58,862 bases of DNA, from NCBI GenBank assembly GCA_014377625.1, contig JACMPG010000375.1, positions 1 through 58,862 of the forward strand, in the 5' to 3' direction. The DNA comes from Spirosoma sp. GTDB lineage: Bacteria; Bacteroidota; Bacteroidia; Cytophagales; Spirosomataceae. The notes beneath the pieces are model-generated. The model searched no databases. It was not told the origin of the DNA and was given only the letters and a program-made list of their open reading frames with translations. Below, one piece after another: positions 4,866-54,220 of the stretch. The first letter of the stretch is position 1. Each line of letters opens with the position of its first letter. The position numbers were made by a program, and so were the translations under genes.

Positions 4866-5384
4866 ATGGAAACGAATCGGAAATGCTGGATAGTTGGGTA
4901 CACGTTACCCCAATGTGAGCGTACGCTACAGGTGAAATTGCAGCGGAGTGGTGTCGAGTGTTTCCTGCCGATGCGGCAGGAAACCCGGAACTGGACCGAC
5001 CGGCAGAAGACGGTTGATGTGCCCGTATTTCCGAACTACATTTTCATTCGGACTACGATGGCCAAACGCTTCGAGTTGCTCAGCAATCGGGAACTGGTCA
5101 AGTACGTAACGTTTGGCGATGCACCAGCTACAGTGCGGGACGATGAAATGGCCCTGCTGCAACTGGTGCAGCATAACAAAACCGACACGGCCATTGTGCC
5201 GCAGCACCATCGGCTCCAGCCCGGCACCCGGGTAACGATCAATACCGGCAAATTTGCCGGGGCCAAAGGCATGCTGATTCGGGAGGACGACCATAACAAA
5301 GTAGTGATCGAGCTGGCGGCCGTACGCCACCTCATTAAGCTACACGTAGATGCCTGCCAGGTTTCGCCCGACGACCGTGGGTAA
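4866..5384 (+). CDS. NusG-like transcription antiterminator (UpxY/LoaP type)
   Basis: A 172-residue NusG paralog. The N-terminal NGN domain (about 7-105) has the CWIVGYT start and the VDVPVFPNYIFIR signature. The C-terminal KOW motif is at about 132-155 (PGTRVTINTGKFAGAKGMLI). Specialised paralogs of this kind (UpxY in Bacteroides capsule loci, LoaP in Bacillus polyketide loci, RfaH in enterics) ride on RNA polymerase and let it read through terminators in very long operons. It is the first gene of a same-strand run of at least 54 kb, with 39 bases before the next gene's chosen start, and an intrinsic terminator lies further down. Operon-specific processive antitermination is therefore the likely role. 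The family call is firm; the target is inferred. Confidence 0.88.
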   Translation: METNRKCWIVGYTLPQCERTLQVKLQRSGVECFLPMRQETRNWTDRQKTVDVPVFPNYIFIRTTMAKRFELLSNRELVKYVTFGDAPATVRDDEMALLQLVQHNKTDTAIVPQHHRLQPGTRVTINTGKFAGAKGMLIREDDHNKVVIELAAVRHLIKLHVDACQVSPDDRG

Positions 5385-5423
5385 GCTGTGTGTTTTGTTT
5401 TCTTCGTCCGGTTCTTTTCCGCT

Positions 5424-6899: not shown

Positions 6900-6990
6900 C
6901 AAGTACAACCATTCTTTCCCGGTGGTAGCCATACCACCGTCCATACCTGAATCGCTCACGTCGGTATTGACATTGGCGACCAGCAAACTT

Positions 6991-7980
6991 ATGTCTAAAA
7001 TGGAACTCAAGAATTACGCCAACGAGGATTGGTGCGACTCCCTGCGTCGACTTCGGGAAAATTCGCAGGGCAGTGGCCTGAGCCTGAAGATGCAACTCGA
7101 CGGGCTGCTTCGTGCCCGGCACGTTACCTACTGGGACTACATCAGGCAGGATACGCTGCTGAGTTTGCAGGCTCCCCGCACCATTGTACCCGATGAAATG
7201 ATATTCATTGTCTACCACCAGATTTCGGAACTGTATTTTCGGCTGATTCTGTGGGAGATGGAGCAACTCATCGACGAGGGGGCCACGGTAACCGCCGACC
7301 TCTTCGTCAATAAAATCGAACGCATTAACCGCTATTACGAACAGTTGGTATCGTCGTTTTCTATTATGGTCGACGGTATGGACCATCATCAATTTATGCA
7401 GTTCCGCTCGGCGCTGGCCCCCGCCAGTGGGTTTCAATCGTTGCAATACCGCCTGATTGACCTGCATGCTACCGCTTTGCCGCATCTGGTGGCCACGGCC
7501 CACCGTTCGCAACTTACGGGGTATGAACCACTTGACAAGCTCTACCGGCGCATCTACTGGAAAGAAGGGGCCATTGACACTAAAACGGGTCGCAAAGATC
7601 TGAGTCTGAGCGAATTTGAAGAAAAATATGACGGCCTTTTGCTGGGCAAAGCGGCCAGACTGGAACAGAGAAGCCTGTGGAGTATCTACCGGCGGCTCGC
7701 ATCAACCTACGCAGTAACCGATCATTGCCGTTCGGTATTGCGGGAGTTCGACGTACTGGCCAACGTGAAATGGCCCCTGGTACACCTCAAAGCCGCTATG
7801 AAACACCTGCACCAGGCCAGCCAGCCGGTGGAGTCGACGGGGGGAACCAACTGGCGCAAGTACCTGCCACCCCGCTACCAGCAAATCAGCTATTTCCCCG
7901 ATCTGTGGACCGCCGAAGAGCGCGACAACTGGGGCCGCACTTACACGTACGAATTAATGAGCAAACTCGTCGAAGCCTGA
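6991..7980 (+). CDS. kynA: tryptophan 2,3-dioxygenase
   Basis: A 329-residue heme enzyme that opens the indole ring of L-tryptophan to N-formylkynurenine. Family signatures are YWDYIRQDTLLSLQ, F72 and H76 in FIVYHQISELYF, R139 in FMQFRSALAPASGFQS, the probable proximal heme ligand H265 in WPLVHLKAAM, and a TGG loop near residue 280. The start at 6991 is preferred over the in-frame 6922 because the upstream 23 residues lack family character. It is rather divergent at the C-terminal end (STGGTN where GTGGS is usual). It sits in the NRPS operon two genes before a kynurenine 3-monooxygenase, so it probably supplies a tryptophan-derived building block, as tryptophan dioxygenases do in daptomycin-type clusters. 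The arylformamidase step is not encoded here. Confidence 0.88.
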   Translation: MSKMELKNYANEDWCDSLRRLRENSQGSGLSLKMQLDGLLRARHVTYWDYIRQDTLLSLQAPRTIVPDEMIFIVYHQISELYFRLILWEMEQLIDEGATVTADLFVNKIERINRYYEQLVSSFSIMVDGMDHHQFMQFRSALAPASGFQSLQYRLIDLHATALPHLVATAHRSQLTGYEPLDKLYRRIYWKEGAIDTKTGRKDLSLSEFEEKYDGLLLGKAARLEQRSLWSIYRRLASTYAVTDHCRSVLREFDVLANVKWPLVHLKAAMKHLHQASQPVESTGGTNWRKYLPPRYQQISYFPDLWTAEERDNWGRTYTYELMSKLVEA

Positions 7981-7999
7981 CCAATAACAACTAAAAACC

Positions 8000-9316
8000 A
8001 TGAAAAATCTCGTGCAACTCTCCCTTCTTACCCTTGCTTTCTGGCTGGTCGTTACCCCAAACACGGTGGCGCAGAATCAGCTTCCCGTCCTGCAAAATGT
8101 AAAAGCCGTGGTCGATACGGTGCAGCGTCAGGTAACGATCACCTACGACCTGACCGACGACGACGAAACTGTGGTGGTCAGTGTACAACTTGCCAACGCC
8201 GACGGATACCGCATAAACCTGACTGATAGTCAGGGCGACATCGGCTACCAGACCAGCGGTAAGGGTAAACAGATTATTGGTCGCTACACCGACGCAGCCT
8301 GGTTGCGCAAAAAAGGAGCGATTCGCCTGATTGCCAACGACCGGCAAAAAGCTTTGGTCAGCGACCTCCTGGCGGCTGTAGATACCAATCGCATCAAACA
8401 GAATACCCAACTCGTATATGGCATGCGCGACCACGAAACCAAAGCGGGTATTCAGCATCTGGCCGAGGTACGCAAGACCGTAGCCGACCAGTTCAGGCGC
8501 GGCCAGTTCGTTACCGCCCGCGCCCCGTTTACCTGGCAAAAGCATACCGGCGAGAACGTAGTTGGTACAAAAGAAGGCCTGGGCGAACAGCCGAAGACCT
8601 ACGTGATTGGTGCCCATATGGATGCCGCCAAAGGCAGCCCCGGTGGTGACGATAACGCAACGGGCGTGGCCGGCCTGCTCGAAGTGATGCATGCCCTGTC
8701 GGCTTACGAGTTTAAGCACCGCATCGTAGTAGTGGGTTTCGACCTCGAAGAAATCGGGTTTATGGGCAGTCAGTTTTTCGTGAAGGATGCCCTCAGGCGC
8801 AAGGAGACCATTGGCGGTATGATTAATTATGACATGATCGGCATGTATTCCGAGCGGCCTAAAACGCAGTTTATACCGCCCGGCTTCGACGGACTTTTTC
8901 CCGAAGTTGCCGCAATGGTAGCGAAAGATGCCTATCGGGGTAACTTCCTGATCTGCACCGCCAACACCTCATCAGAAGAACTGGGTAGGACATTCCGGGA
9001 AAGTGCCAGGCAACACGTACCCTCGCTTAAAGTGGCCTCGCTGGTTGCCCTCGAAAACGGCGAGATGACCCCTACGCTGGCTGCCAGTGACCACGCTTCG
9101 TTCTGGAAAGCCGGTATCCAGGCCCTCCACATCGGCGACGGGGGCGAAACCCGCAACCCAAAGCTCAATACCCCCGCCGATAACCTCGACGGACTAAGCT
9201 ACCGGTTTGCCGGTCAGACGGTACAAGCTACACTGGCAACCCTTGCCCAACTGGCACAAATGCAGCATTGTGCCGTAGCCACGACTGAGGTATCATTCAG
9301 TACGCCAACTAATTAA
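8000..9316 (+). CDS. secreted M28-family zinc metallopeptidase
   Basis: A 438-residue exported peptidase. Residues 1-25 form a Sec signal peptide (charged MKN, hydrophobic core, likely cleavage after TVA or AQ) with no lipobox cysteine. The M28 domain (about 195-430) has the complete two-zinc set: H206 in GAHMDAAKG, D217/D218 in DDNATG, the E250-E251 pair in DLEEIGFMGSQ, D278 in NYDMIGMYS and H365 in SDHASFWKAG. It should act in the periplasm or outside as an aminopeptidase-like enzyme. It lies between the tryptophan dioxygenase and the kynurenine monooxygenase with 19- and 27-base gaps, so it belongs to the operon. A role in trimming or activating the exported peptide, or in self-protection, is inference. 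Confidence 0.87.
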   Translation: MKNLVQLSLLTLAFWLVVTPNTVAQNQLPVLQNVKAVVDTVQRQVTITYDLTDDDETVVVSVQLANADGYRINLTDSQGDIGYQTSGKGKQIIGRYTDAAWLRKKGAIRLIANDRQKALVSDLLAAVDTNRIKQNTQLVYGMRDHETKAGIQHLAEVRKTVADQFRRGQFVTARAPFTWQKHTGENVVGTKEGLGEQPKTYVIGAHMDAAKGSPGGDDNATGVAGLLEVMHALSAYEFKHRIVVVGFDLEEIGFMGSQFFVKDALRRKETIGGMINYDMIGMYSERPKTQFIPPGFDGLFPEVAAMVAKDAYRGNFLICTANTSSEELGRTFRESARQHVPSLKVASLVALENGEMTPTLAASDHASFWKAGIQALHIGDGGETRNPKLNTPADNLDGLSYRFAGQTVQATLATLAQLAQMQHCAVATTEVSFSTPTN

Positions 9317-9343
9317 TCATCAACGTATTAGATATCGTCCGTC

Positions 9344-10798
9344 ATGAGTCATTTTCCTGCAGATCAATGTACAGCCTGCCAGTGTGGGGGGCGTTGCCAG
9401 CGCAGCCGCCTGAACCCCGCCAAGCCCATTCTGATTGCTGGCGCGGGCCTGGTTGGGTCGCTACTGGCCCTAATGCTCTCCCGTCGGGGGTTTCCCGTCA
9501 CCATCATCGAGAAGCGGCCCGACCTCCGCAGAGCCTACGAAAAAGATCACCGGTCCATCAATCTGGCCTTGAGCCACCGGGGCTGGAAAGCCCTCACCGC
9601 CGTTGGCCTGGCCGAAGATATCCGGCGCATTGCATTGCCAATGCACGGGCGTATGATTCACTCCGTGGCCGGGCAGCAGAGTCTGCAATCCTATGGTAAA
9701 GAGGGGGAAGCTATTTTCTCGGTGTCTCGCAATAAACTCAATGAGTTATTGCTCAACAAGGCCGATGAGCAGCCGAACGTCCTGATTCAGTTTGAACATA
9801 GACTGTTGGATTTCAATTTCGACGAGCCGGTTTGCCGGATTGCTAACCCCAATGGACAGGAATATACGGTACGTCCTGAAGTGATATTCGGGGCAGATGG
9901 GGCATTTTCGTTCACCCGGCGCAGGATGCAGGAAAAGCTGATGATGACCTGTGACCAGACCGCCATTACTCCCCGGTATAAAGAATTGACAATTCCCGCC
10001 GGGCCGGAGGGCGAGTGGCTGCTGGACCCCACGGCCCTGCACATCTGGCCACGCGGCAGCTTTATGATGATTGCCCTACCCAATCAGGATCGCACCTTTA
10101 CCTGCACTCTGTTCATGGCCGCCGAAGGCGAAATCTCGTTCGAGGCCATTCAAAATACCAGCGACCTGCACCAGTTTTTCGGGCGTTATTTTCCGAATGC
10201 AGTGCCATTGATACCGGCACTGGAGACCGACTTTTTCCGAAACCCGACCTCGAAAATCATGACCATGCAGTGCTTTCCCTGGCACTACGAAGACAAGGTC
10301 TCCCTTATTGGCGATGCGGCCCATTCCATTGTACCGTTTTACGGACAGGGCATGAATTCAGGCTTTGAAGACTGTATGGCCCTGCTCGACCTGATCGGTA
10401 CTACAGCCCGGCCCAACTGGGCGGAGATTCTACCCGCCTTTCAGCGGAGCCGTAAGGAAAACACCGACGCCATTGCCGAACTGTCGCTGCGCAACTTTAC
10501 CGAGATGCGCGACAAGGTAGCCGATCCAGCTTTTGTACTCCGCAAACAGATCGAAGCCCATATTCACCGGCAGCATCCCGACCAGTGGACACCCCTTTAT
10601 AGCCTCGTATCGTTCAGCCATACCCCCTACGCCGAGGCCCTGCGCATCGGCCAGCAACAGGATGTTATCATGAATCGAATTATGGGCATCGAAGAAATTG
10701 GCACCAGTTGGCAACATCTTGACTATGCGCATATCTTACGGAGCCATGTCTCACCTGACCTAATTTCTGCTCCCCAGCCCGTCGGGCAATTTGCGTAA
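9344..10798 (+). CDS. kmo: kynurenine 3-monooxygenase
   Basis: A 484-residue FAD-dependent hydroxylase converting L-kynurenine to 3-hydroxykynurenine with NADPH and oxygen. The FAD-binding Rossmann motif GAGLVG is at 33-38. The family stretch SINLALSHRGWKAL follows near 68, and the second FAD motif GDAAHSIVPFYGQGMNSGFED is at about 323-343. Compared with typical family members the protein has an extra 25-residue N-terminus with four cysteines (C9, C12, C14, C18) before the first strand; no other in-frame start close to the Rossmann fold removes it. It ends 31 bases before the first NRPS gene. With the dioxygenase at 6991 it points to a hydroxylated kynurenine building block; kynureninase is not seen, so hydroxyanthranilate is less favoured. 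Confidence 0.93.
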   Translation: MSHFPADQCTACQCGGRCQRSRLNPAKPILIAGAGLVGSLLALMLSRRGFPVTIIEKRPDLRRAYEKDHRSINLALSHRGWKALTAVGLAEDIRRIALPMHGRMIHSVAGQQSLQSYGKEGEAIFSVSRNKLNELLLNKADEQPNVLIQFEHRLLDFNFDEPVCRIANPNGQEYTVRPEVIFGADGAFSFTRRRMQEKLMMTCDQTAITPRYKELTIPAGPEGEWLLDPTALHIWPRGSFMMIALPNQDRTFTCTLFMAAEGEISFEAIQNTSDLHQFFGRYFPNAVPLIPALETDFFRNPTSKIMTMQCFPWHYEDKVSLIGDAAHSIVPFYGQGMNSGFEDCMALLDLIGTTARPNWAEILPAFQRSRKENTDAIAELSLRNFTEMRDKVADPAFVLRKQIEAHIHRQHPDQWTPLYSLVSFSHTPYAEALRIGQQQDVIMNRIMGIEEIGTSWQHLDYAHILRSHVSPDLISAPQPVGQFA

Positions 10799-10829
10799 CG
10801 GCCCCACTCACTGTTGATTTAAATTCATC

Positions 10830-13800
10830 ATGGTATCTATTAAAAAGACTGTCCCTACTGGTGGTGTCGACACCCTTAATGCGGCCCTAAGTGCCCTACA
10901 GATCCATACCGACCGCGGGATTTTCGTGATCCGTAGTTCAAAAGAAGAGGAATTCCTACCGTACGCTGATCTGTACGCCAGTGCCTGCTATACGCTGACC
11001 AATCTGCGAAACCACGGCGTTCGGTCCGGCGATGAACTGATGATTCAGGTCGATGACAGCAAGGAGTTTCTGGTGTTGTTCTGGGCCTGTCTGCTGGGCG
11101 GCATCATTGCCGTGCCCCTGTCGACGGGCGTGCAGGAGCAGCAAAAGTCAAAGGTGCTGAACGTAACCGCTACCCTGCTTAATCCTTACTGGGTCGGCTC
11201 CGACGAAAGCCTCGAACGCATTCAGAAAATCCCCCAGGCCGACGATGTGTCCGCTCGGAAACTTGCTGCGTATATACAAGAGCGTTCAATTCGATTGGCC
11301 GACGTTTTCAACCAGAACGCCCTGACCGAACCCGTGGCAGTCGCTGCCGACCAAACGGCGTATATCCAGTTCTCGTCCGGCTCAACGGGTACGCCCAAGG
11401 GAGTGGTACTCACTCACGGCAACCTGATTGCCAATACCAATAGCATTATCGAACGGACCGGCATTGGCCCCGACGATTCGATGCTGAGCTGGATGCCCCT
11501 CACTCACGACATGGGGCTAATCTGCTTTCACCTGAGCGGACTGGTGGCGGGGGTAAATCAGCACATCATGCCTACCGCTCTGTTTATTCGAACCCCCTTA
11601 TTGTGGCTCGAAAAAGCCAGCGAACACCGGGTCAATTACCTGTATTCGCCCAACTTCGGCCTTCAGTATGTGCTGTCGGCGTTCGAGGGTTGCACCCCAA
11701 ACTGGAATTTATCGGCTGTCAAATGCATTTACAACGGCGCAGAACCCATTTCAGCTGCTCTTTGCCAGCGTTTCATGGAGACGATGCAGCCCTACAGCAT
11801 GGGCATGGACGTTATGTTTCCGGGCTACGGCCTGGCCGAAGCCTCCGTAGCCGTTACGCTGCCCAACCCCGGCGAGCTGGTAGTTAGCCACGTGGTTAGC
11901 CGTCGGAGCCTGCAAATTGGCAACCCGGTATCACTACTGCCCGATGCCAGCGATGCCGATGCCCTCACGCTGGTCGAGGTGGGCTTTCCCATTCCCCGGA
12001 CGGAGGTACGCATTGCCGACGATGCCGATATGGTGTTGCCCGACGGCTCCGTTGGTCACATTCAGATTCGGGGCGAAAACGTAACCGGTGGTTACTACAA
12101 CAATCCGGAGGCTACCCAAAAAGCTTTCACGACCGATGGCTGGCTTCGTACCGGAGACCTCGGTTATTCCCAACAAGGGCGGCTTACGGTAACGGGGCGG
12201 CTGAAGGAGTTAATCATCGTGAACGGGCAAAATTATTATCCGCATGACCTCGAGCGCGTGGCCCAGAAGGTACCCGGCATCGAGCTGGGTAAGGTAGTGG
12301 CCACCAGCTACTGGAACGCCCAGCTCAACAAAGAAGACGTGTTGCTGTTTGTGCTGTTTAAAAAGCAGCCCGAACAGTTTGTGCCACTGGCGAAAGCCCT
12401 GCGCACAATATTATTGCAGGAAGTCGGCATTGGTGTCGATAAGGTGTTGCCCTGCCGCCGGATTGCCAAAACAACGAGCGGCAAGATCCAGCGGTTTCAG
12501 TTTATCGACGGTTACCAGCAGGGTGAGTTCGATGCCGCCTGGCAGGTGATCGATGCCAAACTGGAGGCCGACACCCGCGCCGAACTGGCCCACCTGAGTT
12601 TTGCCGATCAGGTGCAGACCTGCTGGCAGGACATTATGGGTAACCCCTTTGCCGAAACCGGCAGTGTCTACGAACTGGGCATCACCAGTTTACAGATCAC
12701 CCGGTTTATTGCCCGGCTCAACCAGGCTGCTGGTACGCAGTTTACCGTGCGCGACGTGTTCCAGTGCGACACACTAGGCGATCTGATTCAGCTTTACACG
12801 AATCGCCGGAACAACCCGTCGGTGACCATTCTGCCCGCTGCTCCTGCCCCAGATTATCCGGTTACGGATGCCCAGCGCCGGTTGTGGTTTACCGACCAGT
12901 TTGCGGCCGGTACCAGTGCCTACAACATCGCCATCGGCTACACGTTTGACGGCGTGGTGGACGAAACAGCCCTGAATACGGCGTTTCAGCAGGTTATTGC
13001 CCGCCATGAAATCCTCCGCACGGCGTTCAACGACGTAGCGGGGGTTGTTCGTCAGCGTGTGCTGACGCCCGATACCATAGCCTTTAACCTGATTACGCTC
13101 GATGCCGCCGACCTGACTGAAAAGCAGGTCGATGTTTATATTCAGACCGAAGCCAACTACCGCTTCGACTTACGGCGCGGTGGCCTGTTTCGGGCTATCC
13201 TCATTCGCCAGCCGCAGCAGGTATACACCCTGCTGCTGGTAATCCACCACAGTATTGCCGACGGCTGGTCGGTGGGATTGCTGATGCAGGAAATCACATC
13301 GTTATACCGCCGGGTCCTGGCCAGTGAATTATTGGAGCAACCCGCCCCCGCCATTCAGTATAAAGATTATGCCGTCTGGCTGGCCAATCAGCCGTACCCG
13401 ACGGAGTCGCTGGACTTCTGGAAGCATCAGCTTGAACCGGCCCACCCCGTTCTCGACTTTCCAACCTACGGTACCCGAACGCCAATCCGCAGTAAAAAAG
13501 GCGGCACGGTTACCCATCTGTTCGGGGCCAATAGCGTATTGGCCGTACATGAGCTGGCCCGCCAACACCAGGCAACGGCCTTTATGGTGCTGCTGGCGAT
13601 GGTGAAGGCTACGCTATACCGCTATACCGGCCAAACCGATATGGTAGTGGGTACGGACGTAGCCAACCGTCAGCTCGATCAGCTTGCCGACCAACCCGGT
13701 TACTTCCTCAACACCCTGTGCGTACGGACAGCTTTTACCGTCAACACGACCCTCAGCGACCTGATTACCGACGTGAAGCAGCGGCTACTGGCGGGGCTGG

Positions 13801-16800
13801 CGCATCAGGATGTATCCTTTGAGACCCTGCTCGATCAGCTCGACGTACCCAAAGATCGGAGTCGCTCCCCTTTGTTCGACGTGCTGGTTGTTTTCCAGAA
13901 CTTTGAACCGGTTCCGTTTGCCCCCAATGCCGACATCCGCCCAACGGGGTATCTGAACCCGACCATCGATGAGACCATCGTTGACCTGCACCTCGAACTG
14001 ACCGAACGGTTGGGTGAACTGAGCCTTCAGCTTCGCTACAACCGCGATTTATACCAGCCCGGCCAGATGCAGCAGTTATGCCGCCATCTGGAAGAAACCA
14101 TTGTGCAATGTGGGCAAAATGCCAGTCAGTCGCTCTGGCAGTATGCGCTGACCACCGGCGATGCAACCACCCGGACAACCCTTCCAGTAGCCAACACCGG
14201 AAATCTGACGCTGCTTCCGGCCATGAGCGAGTCGATGGAAACATACCGACATCTGGTAGCCGTTCGGGATGAAACTACCACCTGGACCTACGGGCAGGTA
14301 TGGAATAAAGCCAATGCTATTGCCCACGAACTCCTGCAACATGGCCTGAAGCCCGAAGAAGGCGTGGGTATTCTCATGCCGCGCAGTACTGGAGCCATTG
14401 CGGCCCTGTTAGGCGTGATGAAAGCCGGTGGAGTTTACGTACCGCTGGATGCAGACTACCCGGCCGACCGGCTCCGCTACATAGCGGCCGACGCCGGTTT
14501 ACGCGTAATTGTTGTGCCGGAAATTGGCTTAGGTACTTCGCACGGTCTGGCCGACTACCCCGAACTGGTCGTTACCAGCGGCTGGTCATCTACCCAATGC
14601 GGAGAGGTAAACGTTACCCGGCAGGGCCACGATCTGGCTTACATTCTCTATACCTCCGGCACGACCGGGATGCCCAAAGGCGTCGAAATTACCCATGCAT
14701 CCCTCGCCGATTACGTTCAGACGTTCACCGACTATTTCCAGATAGAAGCCAATGATATTGTCGTGCAGCAATCATCGCTGAGTTTCGACACGTCGGTCGA
14801 AGAAATTTTTCCCGTGCTGCTGCGCGGAGGCTCCATCAGCGTCGTACGCGGAGGGGGGAAAGATATTGCGGGTCTGATCCGGGCCATCGACACTGGGGCT
14901 ACGGTGCTGAGCACTACCCCTATGGTCATGAACGAACTAAACCAGGAAGCCCCCAAACTGGCCGGTCACCTGCGCCTGCTCATCAGCGGGGGCGACGTGC
15001 TGCGCTATGAACAGGTGAGCGAACTGGTGCATCGGTGCCGGGTCGTCAACACCTACGGCCCCACGGAATCGACAGTCTGCGTTTGTTACGAAGAAGTGAA
15101 AACGGGCGAGCCGACCATCCTGATCGGGCATCCGATTTCGGGCCGAACCATCGCTATCGTGGGGACCGACGGGCAGCAACAGCCGGTTGGCGTGTTTGGC
15201 GAACTCTGGATCGGCGGCACAGGACTCGCCCGGGGCTACCGAAACAATCCGGAACTGACCCAACAGCAATTTGTAAACGGACCCCAGGGCCGGTTCTACC
15301 GCAGTGGTGACTGGGCGCGGTTACGGCCCGACGGACGACTGGAGTTTGCCGGTCGGCGCGACAACCAGCTAAAAATACGGGGCTACCGCGTCGAGCTGGA
15401 CGAGGTTGAGCAGGTTATTGGCCGGTGCCTCGGCGTCGATAGCGTAGCCGTACTGGTGCGTGAGGATAACGGCGTAAAGCGACTAATTGCTTTTTATGCT
15501 GGCGACCGCACCGAAACTAACCTGCGGGTAGCCATTGCCGACACCCTGCCGCATTACATGGTTCCTGCTTTGCTGATGCGGCTGGATACCCTGCCCCGTA
15601 CAGTAAACGGTAAAGTAGACAAAGCGGCTTTGCAACAGATTGCGATTACCCCGGCTCCTGCCTGTGATGTACGGGAACAGACCACGCTGGAGAGAACCAT
15701 TGCCGACGTCTGGACCGAAATTCTGGGCAGGCCCTCGATTCAGCTAACCGACAACTTTTTTGAACTCGGCGGCCATTCCATCAAGGGTGTCCGGGCTATG
15801 CAGCGGCTGGCACAACGCCTGAACCTGACCATCGATTTGTCCGACCTGTTTCAATACCCAACCCTCGAAGGGTTTGCAGCCTGCCTGGCCCGGAAAAGCC
15901 GGGAAACCTATGCCGCTATCCGGCCAGTACCCGCGCAGGAAAGTTACCCCGTATCCTCGGCACAGCGCAGCATGTGGCTACTCCAGCAGATGAACCCCGA
16001 GAGCCCAGCCTATTCCATTGCGTTTGCCGTTGACCTGACCGGTACCCTGAACCCACTGGCTTTCGAGCGGGCATGGCAGCAGGTCGTTGACCGGCACGAG
16101 AGTCTGCGTACCATTATCCGGGACGAGACAGACGGCATCCGGCAGGTGATACTTGACCCGGAGCAGGCCGGGTTTATCGTGCAATGGACAACCCTGACCA
16201 ACCCTACGGAAGCCGACATCCAGGACCATCTACAGGCATTGGCAGCCATCCCCTTCGACCTGTCGACGGCTCCGCTGCTGCGGATCAACGTGTTGCGGGT
16301 GGCTGATAACCGGCAGATTTTGTCGGTGGTGATGCACCATATCATCGGCGACGACTGGTCGGCGGGTGTCCTGCTGCGTGAAGTGTTTAAGCAGTACAGT
16401 CAGCTAATCGACGGACAATCGACGGTTGTTGACCCTCTGGCAATTCAGTACACTGATTACTCGGCCTGGCAACAGCAGCAACTTGCTACCGACCGGATGC
16501 AGACCCACCGCCAGTTCTGGCAGGCACAACTGGCCGACGAATTGCCGGTGCTGCAACTTCCCACCGATGGCGACCGGCCAGCCACGAAAGGCTACGCCGG
16601 CAACAGTGCCAGCCTTACCGTCGGGGCTGACCTGATAACGGCCATTCAGCAACTGGCTCAGGCCAACGGGCTGAGTGAATACATGGTCTGGATGGGCGCA
16701 CTGAACCTGCTGTTGATGCACTATACCGGCCAGCGCGATCTGATTGTAGGATGCCCGGTGGCTGGACGGGAGCATATCGACCTCGAAAACCAGATCGGCT

Positions 16801-24166: not shown

Positions 24167-24195
24167 CCAACCAGCCCGAAAAATCATACAACACC

Positions 24196-29892: not shown

Positions 29893-29925
29893 CGTTTCCC
29901 TTCATCTATTTTATTTCCTACAACT

Positions 29926-31665: not shown

Positions 31666-32037
31666 AGCAAGCTTAGCTCATATTTACATCCAAAAGCCGT
31701 CTCCTTCCGTAGGGGGCGGCTTTTGCATTGGTGGTGATCGGTAGCTCCGGGTAGAGAAGGTCGTTTGGGAAGGGCTAAAGCCCTGAAACTATGGATTCGT
31801 ATAGGGTATAGCCGCCTTTGTATCAAATAGTTTTTGGGCAGAACATTCTGCAACAATTTTGAATCGCTGATCAGCACGAGCCACCGGAGACGGTGCCCCA
31901 CTCAGGTTCGTTCGACCCGGCAATCCAACAGTTACTGATTCCCAAAAGCAGCAAATGGGAGTCGGTACGGCGAAGCCCTGTGCCGCCAGGTTGTTGGCTG
32001 ACTTTGACTCCCTTTCTCCCGCATAAACACTGTATTC
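31666..32037. other. 372-base gap inside the operon: terminator, small palindrome, no gene
   Basis: The gap between the carbamoyltransferase and the second KS protein is by far the longest between biosynthetic genes. It begins with an intrinsic terminator (31692-31724). A short palindrome agggctaaagccct lies at 31771-31784. No convincing coding frame is present on either strand; open frames here lack homology. A secondary promoter for the distal genes could lie in 31790-32000, but no clear TAnnTTTG box with a matching TTG was found. Confidence 0.5.
31692..31724 (+). terminator. intrinsic terminator inside the NRPS operon
   Basis: The arm aaaagccgtctcc (31692-31704) pairs with gggggcggctttt (31712-31724) over 13 positions, two of them G-T pairs, around a 7-base loop. 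The last four T residues lie in the stem and tail. It sits 26 bases after the carbamoyltransferase stop. It would cut the operon in two unless transcription is made termination-resistant, as the antiterminator at 4866 could do. Confidence 0.75.
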
Positions 32038-41133: not shown

Positions 41134-41152
41134 TCTTTTAACCTCGTTTCCC

Positions 41153-45685: not shown

Positions 45686-45692
45686 CCATGTC

Positions 45693-48600
45693 ATGAACGT
45701 AGCTACTAAAACCAGTTCGTTAGCCACTGCCCACAAGCCCATGCTGGCTTTCTGGCAACAGCAGACCGCCGGATTTGGCGAAAGCTTTATGCTGAAAAGC
45801 CTGTCGGCTCCGCCAACCACCAACGAACGCCGGGCGCTGACCCTGCCGTTTGCCGGTACCATCAGTGTCCCCATTGCACAGCGTTGCAACAACAATGCCC
45901 AGGCCCTCTACGTCTGTTACCTCACGGCCCTGTCGGTGGTACTGCGTACATACGAAAACACGGCCCGGGTTACGGTGCATTCGCCGTTGTATGGTCTGGA
46001 TGGCAACAGCGAACCAACCTATCAGGAAACGGTACCCGTTGGGCTGACACTGACGGATGAACTGTCGCTGCGGGCCCACCTGCGGGCCAACCAGGAGCAA
46101 CTGAAGCAGGCCTACGCCTATCAGTATTTTCCGTTGAACACCCTCCGGCAGACTACCAGCGACGAGGCTCTCACCTCAAACGTGCTGTTTGGCATGGGTG
46201 GCCTGCACCGGTCAGTATCGGCCATCTGCCGCGCCAAATATGATCTGGCTATCGACATGCAGGTAAGCGACGAGGGCGTAACGATCCACTATGCGTTCAA
46301 CGGCAATCGGTTTGCCGATGCCTTCGTGCAGGTGCTGCACAGCCACTGGGCCAATGTCCTCGCCTGTCTGGAATACCCCGAAACACCGCTGCGGTCGGTT
46401 AATTTACTCGATGAGCAGGCCTATAACCTGGTCGTGAATGACTTTAATCAGTCGACGGTCAGTCAGCCGTTCAACCCGGCGCTGGCTACGATTCCGGCCC
46501 TGTTCGAGGAGCAGGTTCGTCTGCATCCCGATGCGTACGCTGTGCATTGCGACGGGCAATCGATGACCTACAAACAACTCAACGAAGCCGCCACTCAACT
46601 GGCATACCTACTGCAAACGGACTATCAGGTTGGTCCCGAAGACCGGGTTGCGGTCATGCTCGACCGGTCAGAGTGGCTAATCGTGAGCCTGCTGGGTATC
46701 ATGAAAGCGGGGGCGGCCTACGTACCCGTCGACGCCAGCTACCCCGCCGACCGCAAGCAGTACATCCTGGACGATGCCAGTCCCAAACTCCTGCTGACCA
46801 AGTCGGATTATATGTTCGAGGTGCCGGGCTACACCGGGCAGTTGCTGGCGATGGACATTCAGTTCAGTGTTCAGGAAAACGAATTGCCAACCCTGGCACC
46901 GGGCGCGTCCCCATCCAATCTGGCTTACATCATTTATACCTCCGGCTCCACGGGCAAACCCAAAGGCGTTGGCCTTGAGCACCGCAGCGTGACCAATACC
47001 CTGACCTGGCGCAAAACAGTTTATGCGCTCACAACCAGCGATGCTACCCTGCAACTGTTCTCGTCCGCCTTCGACGGCTCCGTCATGGATATGTTTACGT
47101 CGCTGAGCAGCGGAGGGGCCATTGTTATGCTGCCCAACGATCAGCACACCAACCCGGCCTATCTGCTGAAAAAAATAAAGACCCACGGCGTCACGCACCT
47201 GCTGACGGTACCCTCGCAGTACAAGGCTTTTTTGCAGGAATTTGGTCAGGAGCTGGCGCAACTTCGGTTCGTTACGCTGGCCGGTGAGGCCACCACGAAC
47301 AGCCTGCTGACGCTCCACACCGAAACGGTTCCCAACGTCGAACTCTATAACGAATATGGCCCGACCGAAAACGCCGTTTGTTCGACCTTCGGGCGTTTAT
47401 TGCCCAACAGCCCGCTGACAATTGGCCGCGCCATCCCCAACACCCAGGTGTTTATTGTCGATACCAACCGACGGCCGTTACCGGTGGGGGTGCTGGGCGA
47501 GATTGCCGTAGCGGGAGCGGGGCTGGCCCGTGGCTACTGGAATCAGCCAACACTCACCGCCGAAAAATTCGTACCCAACCCGTTCGACCCAAAACCCCAG
47601 TCGGTCATGTACCTCACCGGTGATCTGGGTTACTGGATGGCCGACGGAACTATTGTATTCCGGTGTCGCAAAGACTATCAGGTTAAAGTGCGGGGCTTCC
47701 GCATCGAACTCGGCGAAATCGAAAACGCCCTGCTGACTTTCGCCGGCGTCAACGAAGCGGTGGTGCAGGACCGGAAAGATACTACGGGAGCTACTTATCT
47801 GGCGGGCTACGTCACGAGCCACGATCCTGAATTCGACACCCGGTTGCTGACTGATTTTCTGCGCGAGTGGCTCCCCGACCATATGGTGCCACAGTACGTG
47901 GTAAAACTGGCCCGGTTGCCGCTGACGCCCAATGGCAAGCTGGACCGCAAAGCCCTACCCGACCCCGCCGTTAGCAGTAGCAGGGTCTGCGTAGTCCCCA
48001 CCAACCCTACCGAAGCCCTACTGGTAGACGTGTGGCAGGGAGTATTGGGTAAATCACCCATCAGCATTGAGGCCGATTTCTTTGGCGAAGGGGGCGATTC
48101 GATCAAAGCCATTCAGGTGGCGGCCCGTGTACACAAGGCCGGTTACCAGCTCGAAGTAAAAGACATTTTCAGGCACCTGGTCCTGCGCGATCTGGCCGCG
48201 TTTCTGACCCGCCAAAAACAGCCCAAAACGGCTGCGGCACTCCCTCTGACCCCAGCCCAGAGCCAATGGGTCGGCCCGGAGACCGAACCCGTTACCAACC
48301 CCTACCGAACGGCCATCTTCCGGGGTACTGACCACATCGACGCAATGACCATAAACCGGGCCCTGCAAACGCTTGAACAAACTTACGACGCCCTGCGGCT
48401 GGCGTTTCAGGTCAGCCCCACGGGTACGGTTCAACTGACGGCTACCCCGACAACAGTGGCCCCCGTGCAGGAACATACCATTCCCGCTTCTGCTTTTAGT
48501 AGCGAGTTATATCAGGACTACAGAGCCGACCTGCTCGATAGCCTGACCGATGGACAACCGCTGCTGCGGGCCAGTCTGTTTCACCTGACCAAAACCGATT

Positions 48601-49559
48601 ATGTCTGTCTATCGGTTCACCGGGCCGTGGCCGATCAAGACGCCTGGGCCGTGTTGCTGGCCGACTTTGTTCGCCTGATCGACGGCGAAACCCTCGCCAC
48701 GCCCACCCGGCAGGGGTCATTCCTCGACTGGGTCGGGCAGGCAAATACCTTCAGGGGCAGTGAAGCCCTGCTAAAAGAGACGACCTTCTGGGAACAGCAG
48801 GTGTCGCGGGCCGACGAGTTGTCTGGTTACGATGCAAGCCAGTCGGCGCAGGCTTACACACGGTTTGCGATGGGTAAAGACATTGTCGAAGACCTGCTGG
48901 TACGTGCCAATCAGGCCTACAATACGCACACCGGCCACCTGGTTTTGACGGCGTTCAAGATTACAATGTCCGACATATTCAACACCGATAGTTGCCTGGT
49001 CGGGCTGGATCAGTCCGCCCGCGATGCCTTCGCTAATGAATCGACCCGGTCATTCAGTGCCGTCGGTAACTACGCGGCTCAGTTCCCATTGCGGCTGACC
49101 TTCGATGGCAGTCGTAACCTGCCCAACCACGTCAAGATCACCAAAGAGCAGGTCAATCAGGTACCCAACCGGGGTATGGGCTATGGCTTACTCACCAGTC
49201 AGTACGGCCAGGCGTTGCTGGGGATGTCTTATATGCCGCCAATGAACCTGGTCGGCTCTAACCTGATGCTGGACGAGGTGCTGACCGACGACATGGAATC
49301 GCCTTACTTCCAAACCGACAAGCCCCTGCACGTGCTGGCGCGGCTGGTAAATAACCGGCTGGTCGTGACGCTCTACTACGACACGAATACCTATTCAATC
49401 GATACCATGCTGACCTTCCGCAACCGACTGGAATACAACCTGTTGAAGCTCATCGTCTTCTGCGCCACGCAGGAACGACAGGAACTGACTCTCAGCGACT
49501 ACGGAAACCAGCATATGAATCTGGATGATCTGGAACAAATCACTGCCCTCTATCAATAG
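45693..49559 (+). CDS. NRPS half-C - A - T - degenerate epimerisation domain
   Basis: A 1288-residue synthetase. Residues 14-250 match only the C-terminal lobe of a condensation domain; the N-lobe with HHxxxDG is absent, and the preceding protein already ends in a complete C domain. The A domain (about 260-770) has the code DGMLTAEVCK, nearest to Tyr-type codes such as DGTLTAEVAK, with low certainty. The carrier serine is S803 in GGDSIKAIQ, the form that goes with epimerisation domains. The last 435 residues are an E domain (VGNYAAQFPLRL, VPNRGMGYG near 1156). Its active motif reads H976-R977-A-V-A-D981-Q982-D-A-W985 instead of HHxxxDGxSW, so the catalytic second histidine is arginine and epimerisation is doubtful. 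It lies 7 bases after the previous stop. Confidence 0.92.
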   Translation: MNVATKTSSLATAHKPMLAFWQQQTAGFGESFMLKSLSAPPTTNERRALTLPFAGTISVPIAQRCNNNAQALYVCYLTALSVVLRTYENTARVTVHSPLYGLDGNSEPTYQETVPVGLTLTDELSLRAHLRANQEQLKQAYAYQYFPLNTLRQTTSDEALTSNVLFGMGGLHRSVSAICRAKYDLAIDMQVSDEGVTIHYAFNGNRFADAFVQVLHSHWANVLACLEYPETPLRSVNLLDEQAYNLVVNDFNQSTVSQPFNPALATIPALFEEQVRLHPDAYAVHCDGQSMTYKQLNEAATQLAYLLQTDYQVGPEDRVAVMLDRSEWLIVSLLGIMKAGAAYVPVDASYPADRKQYILDDASPKLLLTKSDYMFEVPGYTGQLLAMDIQFSVQENELPTLAPGASPSNLAYIIYTSGSTGKPKGVGLEHRSVTNTLTWRKTVYALTTSDATLQLFSSAFDGSVMDMFTSLSSGGAIVMLPNDQHTNPAYLLKKIKTHGVTHLLTVPSQYKAFLQEFGQELAQLRFVTLAGEATTNSLLTLHTETVPNVELYNEYGPTENAVCSTFGRLLPNSPLTIGRAIPNTQVFIVDTNRRPLPVGVLGEIAVAGAGLARGYWNQPTLTAEKFVPNPFDPKPQSVMYLTGDLGYWMADGTIVFRCRKDYQVKVRGFRIELGEIENALLTFAGVNEAVVQDRKDTTGATYLAGYVTSHDPEFDTRLLTDFLREWLPDHMVPQYVVKLARLPLTPNGKLDRKALPDPAVSSSRVCVVPTNPTEALLVDVWQGVLGKSPISIEADFFGEGGDSIKAIQVAARVHKAGYQLEVKDIFRHLVLRDLAAFLTRQKQPKTAAALPLTPAQSQWVGPETEPVTNPYRTAIFRGTDHIDAMTINRALQTLEQTYDALRLAFQVSPTGTVQLTATPTTVAPVQEHTIPASAFSSELYQDYRADLLDSLTDGQPLLRASLFHLTKTDYVCLSVHRAVADQDAWAVLLADFVRLIDGETLATPTRQGSFLDWVGQANTFRGSEALLKETTFWEQQVSRADELSGYDASQSAQAYTRFAMGKDIVEDLLVRANQAYNTHTGHLVLTAFKITMSDIFNTDSCLVGLDQSARDAFANESTRSFSAVGNYAAQFPLRLTFDGSRNLPNHVKITKEQVNQVPNRGMGYGLLTSQYGQALLGMSYMPPMNLVGSNLMLDEVLTDDMESPYFQTDKPLHVLARLVNNRLVVTLYYDTNTYSIDTMLTFRNRLEYNLLKLIVFCATQERQELTLSDYGNQHMNLDDLEQITALYQ
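45729..46448 (+). other. half condensation domain (C-lobe only)
   Basis: The N-terminal part of the protein at 45693. It runs from the equivalent of the HxxYWxxQL helix (AFWQQQTAGFG) through the LLRTYENTARVTVHSPLYG region to the last helices before the A domain. No HHxxxDG is present. It probably serves as a structural platform or docking surface for the C domain at the end of the previous protein. Confidence 0.7.
48240..49556 (+). other. epimerisation domain with broken active-site motif
   Basis: The C-terminal domain of the protein at 45693. The E-type signatures VGNYAAQFPLRL and VPNRGMGYG are clear. At 48618-48647 the motif HHxxxDGxSW reads HRAVADQDAW: the second histidine, the glycine and the serine are replaced while the first histidine, aspartate and tryptophan remain. 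Confidence 0.75.
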
Positions 49560-49589
49560 GCCTACCAACCCCGCTAACCGATACGCCCC

Positions 49590-52500
49590 ATGCAAGCTCG
49601 CGGCTCCGCAAAAGATATTTACGCCCTGACTCCCATGCAGGAAGGGATGTTCTTTCATACCCTGAAAGAAACCAATTCGACGGTATACATCACGCAGGTA
49701 TCTTACCGGCTCAAAGGGTCCGTAGATGCATCGACAGTAGCTAATAGTCTGGCCACGCTGGTGCAGCGACACGATATTCTCCGCACAGCCTTCGTACAGG
49801 AGGGTCTGAACCAGCCGTATCAGGTTGTTCTGAACGTGCGCAATCTGGACTTTACCTATCTCGATTTCAGCGCCAATGGCCTGGCCGACGCAGAACGGCA
49901 GATGACCGCCTACAAAGAACAGGATCGGGCGAAGCCGTTCAGATTAGACAAGGATGTACTGATGCGGGTGGCCGTGATCCGGCTGGCTGACGACGTGTGC
50001 GAGTTCGTTTGGACCTACCACCACATTTTGATGGATGGCTGGTGCGTATCGGTACTGGTGACGGAGTTTTATCAACTCTACAACAGCCTGCAAACGGGTG
50101 TTCCGCATCAGTTGCCCGAACCCATTCCGTACGGCACTTACGTTCGCTGGTTCGAGAAAAAAGACAAGAGCGAAGCCCACGGCTATTGGAAACAGTACAT
50201 GGCCGGGGTATCGCAGGTGACGCGCCTTCCGGAAACGGGCCGGGCCAACCGCCAATTAGCCTACGAAAACGACGATTATTATTTCCGGCTCACCCCGGCG
50301 CAGGTTCGTAGCCTGACGGCGCTGGCCGCCAGTTCGCGGGTAACGATCAACTCGGTCGTACAAACGATCTGGGGGGTGTTGATGGCCAAGTACAATGATA
50401 CCCGCGATGCCGTTTTTGGCACCGTCGTGTCGGGGCGTCCGGCGCACATCGAAGGGGTCGAGCGCATTGTCGGGCTATTCATCAACGCAGTGCCGGTGCG
50501 GGTCCAGTATGGCACCGATACCCGCTTTATTGACCTGCTGAAGGCCGTGCAGCAGGATGCCATCGACGCCGAGCCCAACCACTACTTCCCGCTGGCCGAC
50601 ATTCAGGCCAACAGCGCGATCAAACAAAATCTGGTCAACCATATTTTTGTTTTTGAAAACTACCCGATCAGCAACTTGCTGGCCGAAATTTCCGGTCAGG
50701 ATGCCAACGCGCAGGCCAACTGGGAAGTAACGTCAGCCGAAGGATTTGCCCAGACCAACTACGACTTCAACGTCAACGTAGCCCCGTCGGGCGACGAGAT
50801 CATGTTCCGCTTCGACTGGAATAAACACCTGTTCGATCACGATGTAGTAGTTCGGCTGGCGGGTCATTACCAGCATCTGGTTAATCAGGTGATCGCCAAT
50901 GAGCAGGCGCCGGTCGATGCGCTCTCTCTACTTGCCCCTGAGGAAGTACAGCGGCTACTAACGCTCGCCACCGGCCCGGCCCAACAATACACGATGTGCG
51001 AAACCATTGCGCAGGTGTTCGCCGAACAGGTTGCCCGGTACCCTGACAAAACGGCCCTGATTCACAATACCACCCGGCTGTCATACCGCGAACTCAATGA
51101 TCTGTCGGACCGGCTGGCGGGCCACCTGCAAACAAACCTCGGCCTTCAGCCCGACCGCTTCGTGGGCGTGATGCTTGACCGCTCAACCGAAACCGTTATC
51201 AGCCTGCTGGCCATCCAAAAAGCGGGGGGCATCTACGTACCCATCGACCCGAACTATCCCGACGAGCGCATTGCGTTTATGCTGGCCGATACCGGGGCCG
51301 ATGTACTCATCACCCAATCGTCATACCTGTTCAAAGCGGGCGATTTTTCCGGGCAGTTTTTCGCCACGGATCTGGAAATGGACATGCTGGCAAACGGCAC
51401 AACGGTAACCCCGGCCACGCAGGAACTGGCGTACGTGATCTATACCTCCGGCACCACGGGCAAACCCAAAGGTGTGCTGATCCGTCAGGAGAGCATCATC
51501 GACCGTATTCTGTACCACAACGATTACCTGCCCGTCACGGCCGACGACGTCGTCCTGCAGTTTGCGTCGTCTGGTTTCGATGCGTCGCTGGTGGAGATGT
51601 TGATGGCCCTGTTTGCGGGTGGTACGGTGGTGATTGCCGACACCACGATCCGACAAAACCTGACCCTGCTGGCCGACACTATTGAACAACACCGGGTAAC
51701 AGTGGCGATTCTGCCTCCGGCTTACCTGAAAATTCTGGATAAACACCCGCTGCCCTCCCTGCGAAAACTGATCTCAACGGGCGAAGCGGCCCAACTGGAA
51801 GAGAGCCTGTTCTACGCTGAAACGAAAGATTTCTTTAACGGCTACGGCCCCACGGAAGCCTGCATCGGCGCGTCGTTTCACCGCATCGACACTGGCCGGA
51901 AAAATGACTACCGCACCAATGGTATTCCCATTGGTCAGCCCTTCGCCAACACGACCATTCTACTCGTCGATTCGCAGCGCAAACTGGTGCCGCAGGGCAT
52001 CACTGCCGAGATCTGCGTGACGGGTAAGGGTCTGTCGGCAGGCTATCTGAACCAGCCGGTGCTAACAGCCCAGACATTTTTACCCAATGCATACGCCCGC
52101 AATGACCAGGAAGACGTCCTGTATTACACGGGTGATCTGGGCCGGTGGAATGCCGGTGGTGAACTCGAATACGTTGGCCGTCGCGACGAGCAGGTACAGA
52201 TCAACGGGATGCGGGTCGAAATTGGTGAGATCGAGAGTCTACTTCGTCAACAGGATGGCATTCAGCAGGCGACCGTTACGGCCCAGCCCGACGAAGCGGG
52301 GCAGCTCTACCTGATTGCCTACGTCGTTAGTCCGGCACCGGTCACGGTGGGATCGGTCCGGGCCAGTCTCAGTACGTTTCTACCCGCCCATATGCTGCCT
52401 TCCTGGGTGATTCGGCTGGACGAAATACCCCTCTCCTCGAATGGCAAAGTCAACAAGAAAGCACTGCCGCTGGCCGACCTGAGCGAATTACAGAAAATGG

Positions 52501-54170
52501 CTCAGTACGAATCGCCGGTTGGCGACACCGAAGTACGGTTGGCCACCATCTGGCAACGGGTACTCGACCGGGCCGACATTGGCGTGCTGGACAACTTCTT
52601 CCAGATCGGGGGACAAAGTCTCAAAGCCACTCAGATCGTATCACGGATTTTCAAAGAATTCAAAGCCAAAGTCGAACTGAACGACCTATTCTCTCACCCT
52701 ACAATCCGGGGTTTGGCGTCCATAATTGACCAGGAACAGCCGATCGACTACCAGAAACTGACCCCCGTACCGCAGCAGACGCACTACCCCCTGTCGTCGG
52801 CGCAAAAGCGTCTCTGGATGCTCGACCAGTTTGCGGGTACGCAGGCTGCCTACAACGTACCGGGAAGCTACTGGCTGTCGGGTCACCTGAATGTGGCCGC
52901 GTTTGAGCAAAGTTTTTACCAGTTGATCGAGCGGCACGAAAGCCTGCGGACGCGCTTCATTATGGCCCAGGGAGAACCCGCCCAGCAAATCATGGCCGCC
53001 GATGCCTGCAATTTTACGTTCGGGTATGACGACCTGCGCATAGCGACCAACCAGCCAGCTCAACTTGAAACACTGGCCCAACGGTACGCCGAATGGCCAT
53101 TCGATCTGCAAACGGGTCCACTCCTCAAGGCCAGACTGATTCGAACGGCAGACGACACGTACCTGTTTCTGCTGACAATGCACCACATCATCAGCGACGG
53201 CTGGTCGATGGAAGTGCTGGTGCGCGATGTGTTTACGTTTTATCAGGCCAACTGCGCCGGTACGGATTCGACGCTGGCACCACTGACCATCCACTACAAA
53301 GAATATACCCTGTGGCAGGCCCGGCAACTGACCGGTGAGGCACTCGATAAACACCGGAATTACTGGTTCGGTCAGTTTGAGTCACCCGGCCCGGCACTGG
53401 CTATACCCACCGATTTTCCCCGCCCTACCCACAAGCGGCACCGGGGCGACCTGCTAACCCACACCTTCCCGGAAGAGCAGGTGATCCAGTTGAGGGCGCT
53501 CTGTCAGCAGGAAGGGATTACCTCATTTGTGGCCCTGGTCGCGTTGCTGAATACGCTGCTCTACGACTGGACCGGACAGACAGACATCGTGCTCGGCTCG
53601 GTCATCAGCGGTCGGCAACTGGAGCAACTCGAAGACCAGATTGGTCTCTACACGAACACCATTGCGCTGCGTACCCGTTTCGACGCCAGTGAGCCCTTTA
53701 TCAGTCTGTTACAGACCGCCAAGCAGACGGTACTGGGCGCGTATCAGTACCAGCTCTACCCGTTCGAGCAACTCGCCGAGGAGCTAAACCAGGCCGGTTC
53801 GGCCGGTCCTGCCTCGCTGTTCGACATCATGATCACCCACCAGAACCTGGGGTCGTCGTCGCTGCAAAAGCAGATCGACACCGGCGGTATCCGCGTCGAA
53901 CCCGGCCCAGCCACGGCGTCGACGAGCCGTATGGACCTGATTTTTGGGTTTGTCGAGCACGATAATCACCTGAATCTGACCGTCGAATACGACACCGATC
54001 TTTTTCTGGAAGCGTCTATCCATATGCTGATGGAGAAAATGGAGTTACTGCTGGCAAAAGCCGTAGTGGCCCCGCAAACGCCCGTTGGCGCGTTCGATTT
54101 GCAGGATGCCCTGGAGGAGCGGTTCGCCATGCCAACCGCCCTCGCTGACTTTGATATTGACTTTTTCTGA
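49590..54170 (+). CDS. NRPS C-A-T-C, second kynurenine-like adenylation domain
   Basis: A 1526-residue synthetase with the same layout as the protein at 41153. C1 begins YALTPMQEGMFFH, typical of C domains that follow an epimerisation domain (one precedes it), with HHILMDG at 144-150. The A domain (about 475-965) has the code DAVIITGIGK, nine of ten identical to the A domain at 41153, and the same LRKLISTGEAA and AILPPAYL stretches. T carries S1010 in IGGQSLKAT. The last C domain (about 1066-1500) has an intact HHIISDG (H1198/H1199, D1203, G1204) and must serve the A domain of the next protein. It ends LADFDIDFF, a tail resembling that of the protein at 41153. It starts 30 bases after the previous stop. 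Confidence 0.93.
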   Translation: MQARGSAKDIYALTPMQEGMFFHTLKETNSTVYITQVSYRLKGSVDASTVANSLATLVQRHDILRTAFVQEGLNQPYQVVLNVRNLDFTYLDFSANGLADAERQMTAYKEQDRAKPFRLDKDVLMRVAVIRLADDVCEFVWTYHHILMDGWCVSVLVTEFYQLYNSLQTGVPHQLPEPIPYGTYVRWFEKKDKSEAHGYWKQYMAGVSQVTRLPETGRANRQLAYENDDYYFRLTPAQVRSLTALAASSRVTINSVVQTIWGVLMAKYNDTRDAVFGTVVSGRPAHIEGVERIVGLFINAVPVRVQYGTDTRFIDLLKAVQQDAIDAEPNHYFPLADIQANSAIKQNLVNHIFVFENYPISNLLAEISGQDANAQANWEVTSAEGFAQTNYDFNVNVAPSGDEIMFRFDWNKHLFDHDVVVRLAGHYQHLVNQVIANEQAPVDALSLLAPEEVQRLLTLATGPAQQYTMCETIAQVFAEQVARYPDKTALIHNTTRLSYRELNDLSDRLAGHLQTNLGLQPDRFVGVMLDRSTETVISLLAIQKAGGIYVPIDPNYPDERIAFMLADTGADVLITQSSYLFKAGDFSGQFFATDLEMDMLANGTTVTPATQELAYVIYTSGTTGKPKGVLIRQESIIDRILYHNDYLPVTADDVVLQFASSGFDASLVEMLMALFAGGTVVIADTTIRQNLTLLADTIEQHRVTVAILPPAYLKILDKHPLPSLRKLISTGEAAQLEESLFYAETKDFFNGYGPTEACIGASFHRIDTGRKNDYRTNGIPIGQPFANTTILLVDSQRKLVPQGITAEICVTGKGLSAGYLNQPVLTAQTFLPNAYARNDQEDVLYYTGDLGRWNAGGELEYVGRRDEQVQINGMRVEIGEIESLLRQQDGIQQATVTAQPDEAGQLYLIAYVVSPAPVTVGSVRASLSTFLPAHMLPSWVIRLDEIPLSSNGKVNKKALPLADLSELQKMAQYESPVGDTEVRLATIWQRVLDRADIGVLDNFFQIGGQSLKATQIVSRIFKEFKAKVELNDLFSHPTIRGLASIIDQEQPIDYQKLTPVPQQTHYPLSSAQKRLWMLDQFAGTQAAYNVPGSYWLSGHLNVAAFEQSFYQLIERHESLRTRFIMAQGEPAQQIMAADACNFTFGYDDLRIATNQPAQLETLAQRYAEWPFDLQTGPLLKARLIRTADDTYLFLLTMHHIISDGWSMEVLVRDVFTFYQANCAGTDSTLAPLTIHYKEYTLWQARQLTGEALDKHRNYWFGQFESPGPALAIPTDFPRPTHKRHRGDLLTHTFPEEQVIQLRALCQQEGITSFVALVALLNTLLYDWTGQTDIVLGSVISGRQLEQLEDQIGLYTNTIALRTRFDASEPFISLLQTAKQTVLGAYQYQLYPFEQLAEELNQAGSAGPASLFDIMITHQNLGSSSLQKQIDTGGIRVEPGPATASTSRMDLIFGFVEHDNHLNLTVEYDTDLFLEASIHMLMEKMELLLAKAVVAPQTPVGAFDLQDALEERFAMPTALADFDIDFF

Positions 54171-54220
54171 TTGCCTGAACTGTACGGCCTTTCCCGGTGC
54201 CCATTCAAACACGACTTGCC

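Follow-up and report, generated by a model that had tools for sequence, protein, structure and literature searches.

A Spirosoma nonribosomal peptide synthetase operon with its own tryptophan dioxygenase, kynurenine monooxygenase and two predicted 3-hydroxykynurenine modules

A 58,862-base contig of Spirosoma sp. (G000:C261, the whole of which is here called the window) carries nonribosomal peptide synthetase (NRPS) and polyketide synthase (PKS) genes together with genes for a tryptophan 2,3-dioxygenase (TDO) and a kynurenine 3-monooxygenase (KMO). The parent genome, G000, comprises 5.3 Mb in 378 contigs and is 85% complete. We propose that this assembly line probably makes a fatty-acylated, probably carbamoylated NRPS/PKS peptide in which 3-hydroxykynurenine produced by the cluster itself is used twice. 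That both modules in question load TDO-derived kynurenine appears very likely from the sequence and, given this, the unit is likely to be 3-hydroxykynurenine rather than plain kynurenine. As the original prediction for this DNA had noted, the TDO and KMO genes share one operon with the NRPS genes. All lie on the plus strand in a tight array with intergenic distances of −4 to 33 bp, the single wide gap (372 bp) preceding gene 32038; from TDO onward the successive gaps are 19, 27, 31, −4, 29, 33, 372, 19, 7, 30 and 26 bp.

The adenylation (A) domains of the two modules carry the pocket codes DAVIITGVGK and DAVIITGIGK, read on the PheA ruler except for the tenth residue, the lysine, which was taken from the NGK of the A10 motif. 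Both codes agree with the original prediction, whose positions 41153 and 49590 pointed to the right genes but are gene starts, the domains themselves lying at about 42557-43990 and 51018-52448. The kynurenine code of daptomycin is DAWTTTGVGK, as the original prediction had it, and that of taromycin is DAWTTTGVAK (PMC9113097). The first domain matches the daptomycin code at 7 of 10 positions and the second at 6 of 10, again as predicted; a score of six is also reached by 5 of 53 other codes read (the PheA ruler counted among them), so that a match of this size is weak by itself. Positions 301, 322, 330 and 331 are common to the window and daptomycin codes, save for exchange of V and I, and this quartet (T301-G322-V/I330-G331) occurs in none of the 53 other codes and in none of four further ones. 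Eight A domains of this kynurenine type, two in each of four genomes from two families (G000 with the window, G227, G330 and G096), form one clade with support of 98/95. They share 48-85% pairwise identity, their codes vary only between V and I, and all eight pockets place V or I where daptomycin has W239, a replacement that would leave room for a hydroxyl.

Occurrence was followed in samples of 222 genomes of the family, 36 of them from the genus, 291 of the order and 395 of the phylum. The A-domain region was matched in 12/222 family genomes (E 1e-30), with the kynurenine type confined to G000, G227 and G330 at two domains each; these match at 51-64% identity, against 30-43% for all other family matches. 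KMO was found in the same three family genomes (E 1e-30); the 35 genus genomes besides G000 yielded no KMO. Fisher's exact test gives p 5.6e-7 for this coincidence, a post hoc value, chosen with the data in view, that takes no account of kinship. Within the order, A domains of this type occur in G000, G227 and G096 with more than 300 bits, the next match scoring 191 bits, and the next loci (L103-L106) have codes of other types. The phylum sample yielded no further match above about 200 bits, against at least 352 for the window's own. Nineteen codes read there (L080-L098) were of other types. Taken with the 4 loci read from the order, these closest remaining A domains have mostly Phe/Tyr-like codes.

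G096, from another family, has two KMO matches. One, on contig C520, adjoins a kynureninase gene (L008); the second shares contig C655 with both kynurenine-type A domains, the closer one about 10 kb away, and with M28 peptidase and CmlA-type genes. Such a pair, one KMO with kynureninase and one with the A domains, is as predicted if the cluster enzyme feeds the assembly line. The window and G096 each have KMO and kynurenine-type A domains on a single contig. The KMO contigs of G227 and G330 also carry NRPS, CmlA and M28 genes (the NRPS of G330 contig C29 read by eye). Common to all four genomes are the two A domains and a KMO and an M28 gene near NRPS genes; the window, G227 and G330 clusters add TDO and carbamoyltransferase, and G227, G330 and G096 a CmlA-type diiron hydroxylase, for which no gene was seen among the window genes scanned, the window stopping inside an NRPS. 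The A domains co-occur with kynurenine-making enzymes, with TDO not located in G096.

The window TDO matches PF03301 above its cut-off (E 1e-26), covering residues 68-180 only, and scores 97 bits against TIGR03036; because this is far under the cut-off of 391, we call the enzyme divergent. Its best solved-fold matches are TDOs. Residues F95, H99, R162, S169, H288 and T306 are invariant among 12 homologues, and the protein keeps the heme and substrate residues, which we take to be H55, R117, S124, H240 and T254 in Xanthomonas numbering. In a tree of 12 rows that carries a long-branch warning, it clusters with the cluster TDOs of G227 and G330 (support 95/94), apart from lone TDOs. TDO occurs in 37/222 family genomes; in G227 its gene is on the same contig as a kynurenine-type A domain, and in G330 it is on the KMO contig.

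For the window KMO, the top PDB match is a kynurenine 3-monooxygenase (E 1.2e-99) and a FAD motif is present. Four residues that we take to be the kynurenine contacts (R84, Y98, N369 and Y404 in P. fluorescens numbering) are kept in 4/4 cluster KMOs and in 29/29 other order KMOs compared (L006-L034), and the enzyme is predicted to hydroxylate kynurenine at C3. In all four genomes KMO lies beside NRPS genes. Linkage of KMO to A domains that act within the chain favors 3-hydroxykynurenine as the building block. The original prediction of two kynurenine or 3-hydroxykynurenine residues thus gains support from the shared occurrence in the same 3/222 family genomes, the second KMO of G096 and the conserved KMO residues.

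In the proposed pathway, the cluster TDO would open the indole ring of L-tryptophan to give N-formylkynurenine, as suggested by family, fold and conserved catalytic residues. The formyl group would be lost spontaneously or through a putative hydrolase; precedents treat this deformylation as spontaneous or as possibly spontaneous (PMC7448278, PMC4052310). KMO, by strong homology and its retained kynurenine contacts, would then hydroxylate free L-kynurenine at C3. The two A domains, in modules 41153 and 49590, would load the product, most likely 3-hydroxykynurenine, one residue apart, a specificity suggested by code and gene linkage. From the sequence, the chain would start on a fatty acyl-AMP ligase domain.

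Several observations weigh against this proposal. Resemblance to the daptomycin code does not discriminate by itself. Of the ten positions of the daptomycin-type code DAWTTTGV(G/A)K, the first domain differs at three and the second at four, with W239, T278 and T299 replaced by V/I. The TDO grouping depends on twelve rows with long branches, and no TDO was found on the 52-kb G096 contig C655, the rest of G096 not having been searched for it. The cluster KMOs are not one clade, a single clade of three not being rejected (p-AU 0.114), and at order level KMO presence is not significantly associated (p 0.26, KMO in 187/291). In G227 (C14 versus C64 and C39) and G330 (C29 versus C170), KMO is on a different contig from the A domains, which makes their membership of one cluster presumptive. 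Among 29 KMO loci of the order, each viewed with about 1.5 kb of flank, 22 lack kynureninase and 7 have it; the lack of one next to the cluster KMO is therefore unremarkable by itself, which slightly lowered our confidence in the whole. Lastly, no support was obtained for the expectation that the genome would supply deformylation: no PF04199 (KynB-type) match came up in the 85%-complete genome, a negative that covers this one formamidase family.

The most serious competitor, which we consider distinctly less likely, is that the modules load plain L-kynurenine, with KMO hydroxylating afterwards, either the peptide (still on its carrier or already finished) or just one of the two residues. The T301/G322/V330/G331 positions shared with the daptomycin kynurenine pocket fit this reading (PMC9113097). 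The order of tailoring, moreover, cannot be read from DNA. Known KMOs, however, use free kynurenine as substrate, and all four residues contacting that free amino acid are conserved; V/I in place of W239 in all eight pockets would also provide space for one more group.

We consider it improbable that TDO and KMO instead serve a 3-hydroxyanthranilate-type unit, following the logic of anthramycin, with a standard aromatic amino acid as the substrate of both A domains. Pyrrolobenzodiazepine clusters use NRPS-adjoining KMO and kynureninase in this way (PMC4194701), a kynureninase is present in the G000 genome, and the nearest other A domains are those with mostly Phe/Tyr-like codes. Yet tblastn found no kynureninase in the window, which ends at 58862 with a gene beyond possible, and none was found in G227 (C14, 80 kb; C64, 40 kb; C39 outside the check), G330 (C29, 35 kb; C170; C272) or G096 (C655), so that the kynureninase of a 3-hydroxyanthranilate-using NRPS cluster is missing from the stretches checked. 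The G000 copy lies among unrelated genes on contig C202 (L004), and kynureninase is found in 35/36 genus genomes (E 1e-75 or better), among which only the window's has KMO, and above cut-off in 104/222 family genomes; being on a separate contig and so widespread, it is no part of the cluster. The starter is, by its best model, a fatty acyl-AMP ligase, and a 3-hydroxyanthranilate unit leaves the occurrence of the A-domain clade and KMO in the same family genomes unexplained. Across the family sample as a whole, kynureninase (104) outnumbers TDO (37) and KMO (3).

Least probable, and very unlikely in our view, is a chance juxtaposition of catabolic TDO and KMO genes with an NRPS operon. Both families are common (KMO in 187/291 order genomes at E 1e-60; TDO as above). 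Against this stand the absence of KMO from the 35 other genus genomes, the separation of cluster from lone TDOs (with its long-branch warning), the presence in G096 of both a kynureninase-adjoining and an A-domain-adjoining KMO, and the close spacing (19-31 bp) of the genes that run from TDO up to the NRPS start.

Among the closest known systems, daptomycin and taromycin are, like the predicted product here, lipopeptides with a fatty acyl-AMP ligase start and a TDO gene (DptJ) beside the NRPS (PMC9113097, PMC7448278), and the daptomycin kynurenine A domain has T301-G322-V330-G331 (PMC9113097). They come from actinomycetes rather than Bacteroidota and have one kynurenine module, whereas the window operon encodes two kynurenine-type modules with V/I at 239/278/299, a KMO, a carbamoyltransferase and PKS modules. 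The original prediction had seen a new logic in hydroxylation encoded with the NRPS; KMO beside NRPS genes is in fact known from the anthramycin, sibiromycin and porothramycin clusters, with TDO too in the first two, but there it serves 3-hydroxyanthranilate via a cluster kynureninase (with an aryl formamidase in the porothramycin table; PMC4194701), whereas the window lacks kynureninase and has kynurenine-type A domains in-chain. Actinomycin- and quinomycin-type chromophores likewise arise from tryptophan by way of 3-hydroxykynurenine or beta-hydroxykynurenine, which becomes a starter chromophore and not an in-chain amino acid (PMC6521150, PMC4052310). Among fungi, nanangelenin, terreazepine, pseudofisnin and aspcandine clusters pair a tryptophan dioxygenase with an L-kynurenine-loading NRPS; the dioxygenase is a fungal indoleamine 2,3-dioxygenase (IDO), and the terreazepine code is described as dissimilar, its NRPS having two A domains. 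The aspcandine route reportedly goes via 3-hydroxykynurenine.

Kynurenine lipopeptides with TDO beside the NRPS (daptomycin), KMO-bearing NRPS clusters and fungal L-kynurenine NRPSs are thus already known. The literature searched yielded no recognized bacterial cluster with dedicated TDO, KMO and two in-chain kynurenine-type modules. We regard this as a real, conserved cluster type, with a predicted substrate, whose combination of TDO, KMO and double kynurenine-type modules appears new among kynurenine lipopeptide assembly lines. It yields a testable rule, in which the pocket DA-V/I-I/V-I/V-TG-V/I-GK would mark a Trp-derived residue. For finding more such clusters, a KMO gene within an NRPS operon offers a gene-linkage marker. 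Were the residue 3-hydroxykynurenine, this would be a bacterial lipopeptide keeping it in-chain, of which the literature searched gave no example, with redox-active and potentially metal-binding side chains. Two such residues at i and i+2 might, more speculatively, have their o-aminophenols oxidatively coupled into an intramolecular phenoxazinone bridge resembling xanthommatin or actinomycin, or bind metal jointly, which we think unlikely. A di-haem CCP/MauG-type gene (L075:1-930) adjoins KMO on G330 contig C29 and would be a candidate oxidant for such a bridge in that one cluster; none was noticed in the other clusters, which were scanned only in part.

The wider assembly line is laid out in Table 1. 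Among NCBIfam models, the starter domain is matched best by NF006624, a fatty acyl-AMP ligase model, with 328 bits against a cut-off of 600; a carrier and condensation (C) domain follow, an architecture that suggests a lipopeptide. Starter ligases in G227 and G330 were recognized by reading the sequences by eye. Assuming collinearity, residue order was taken from gene order, and residue names other than the kynurenine type are predictions from the pocket codes. The gene at 45693 would accordingly load a residue X between the two kynurenine-type residues (Kyn*), giving Kyn*-X-Kyn*-Pro-like in the window, Kyn*-Ser-like-Kyn*-Orn-like in G330, where a thioesterase-like motif is present, and Kyn*-Asx-like-Kyn*-X in G096. 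The Kyn*-X-Kyn* order is thus found in 3/3 readable clusters, that of G227 being unreadable because it is split over contigs.

Table 1. Features of the window, with the evidence behind each assignment (T, thiolation; KS, ketosynthase)
Feature	Position	Strand	Basis
UpxY/RfaH-type antiterminator	4866..5384	+	NF033644, 126 bits (cut-off 100)
Divergent tryptophan 2,3-dioxygenase, Trp to N-formylkynurenine (predicted)	6922..7980	+	profile matches, fold, kept residues
M28-family peptidase, N-terminal signal-like stretch (by eye)	8000..9316	+	PF04389, E 1e-26
Kynurenine 3-monooxygenase, kynurenine to 3-hydroxykynurenine (predicted)	9344..10798	+	PDB match, FAD motif, kynurenine contacts
NRPS: N-terminal fatty acyl-AMP ligase and carrier, then three C-A-T modules	10830..22247	+	domain matches, motifs
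NRPS, TubC docking-C-T, without A domain	22244..24166	+	domain matches
PKS/NRPS: KS, carrier, C, A (Gly-like, DIIQLGLIYK), carrier	24196..29892	+	domains, code
NodU-type carbamoyltransferase	29926..31665	+	profile matches
PKS/NRPS: KS, carrier(s), C, A (Ser-like), T, C, A (Asn-like)	32038..41133	+	domains, codes, motifs
NRPS C-A-T-C, first kynurenine-type module	41153..45685	+	domains, code, motifs
Kynurenine-type A domain 1, DAVIITGVGK	42557..43990	+	PheA ruler
NRPS: half C, A (DGMLTAEVCK), T, epimerase-like domain	45693..49559	+	domains, code
NRPS C-A-T-C, second kynurenine-type module	49590..54170	+	domains, code, motifs
Kynurenine-type A domain 2, DAVIITGIGK	51018..52448	+	PheA ruler; 63% identical to A domain 1
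NRPS cut by contig end at 58862: half C, A (Pro-like), T, C, A	54197..58861	+	domains, code

Two proteins of the assembly line start with only the C-terminal part of a C domain (45693-46502 and 54197-55000), although the preceding protein in each case ends with a nearly complete one. The epimerase-like domain at 48180-49556 scores 61 bits against TIGR01720, below its cut-off, and has HR instead of the HH motif; it is possibly inactive. The G227 and G330 clusters contain closely similar carbamoyltransferases (63% and 59% identity), and homologues of the M28 peptidase adjoin all three other clusters (G227 C14, G330 C29 and G096 C655; 33-36% identity). The plus-strand genes between 4866 and the open 3′ end include the NRPS/PKS operon. 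The first encodes the antiterminator, which probably acts on the operon; antiterminator-like genes also occur near the G227 and G330 clusters. Three base pairs past it lies a trehalose-6-phosphate-synthase-like GT20 gene (5388-6899) that falls slightly under two NCBIfam cut-offs. Further upstream, a lantibiotic/thiopeptide-type dehydratase gene (1355-4468; PF04738, TIGR03891) adjoins a LytTR response regulator (602-1324), and a LytTR-like regulator with 37% identity to it occurs in the vicinity of the G330 cluster. A YceI gene and a beta-lactamase-family (PF00144) gene are paired in the G227 (L035:7032-9260) and G330 (L075:2926-5179) clusters.

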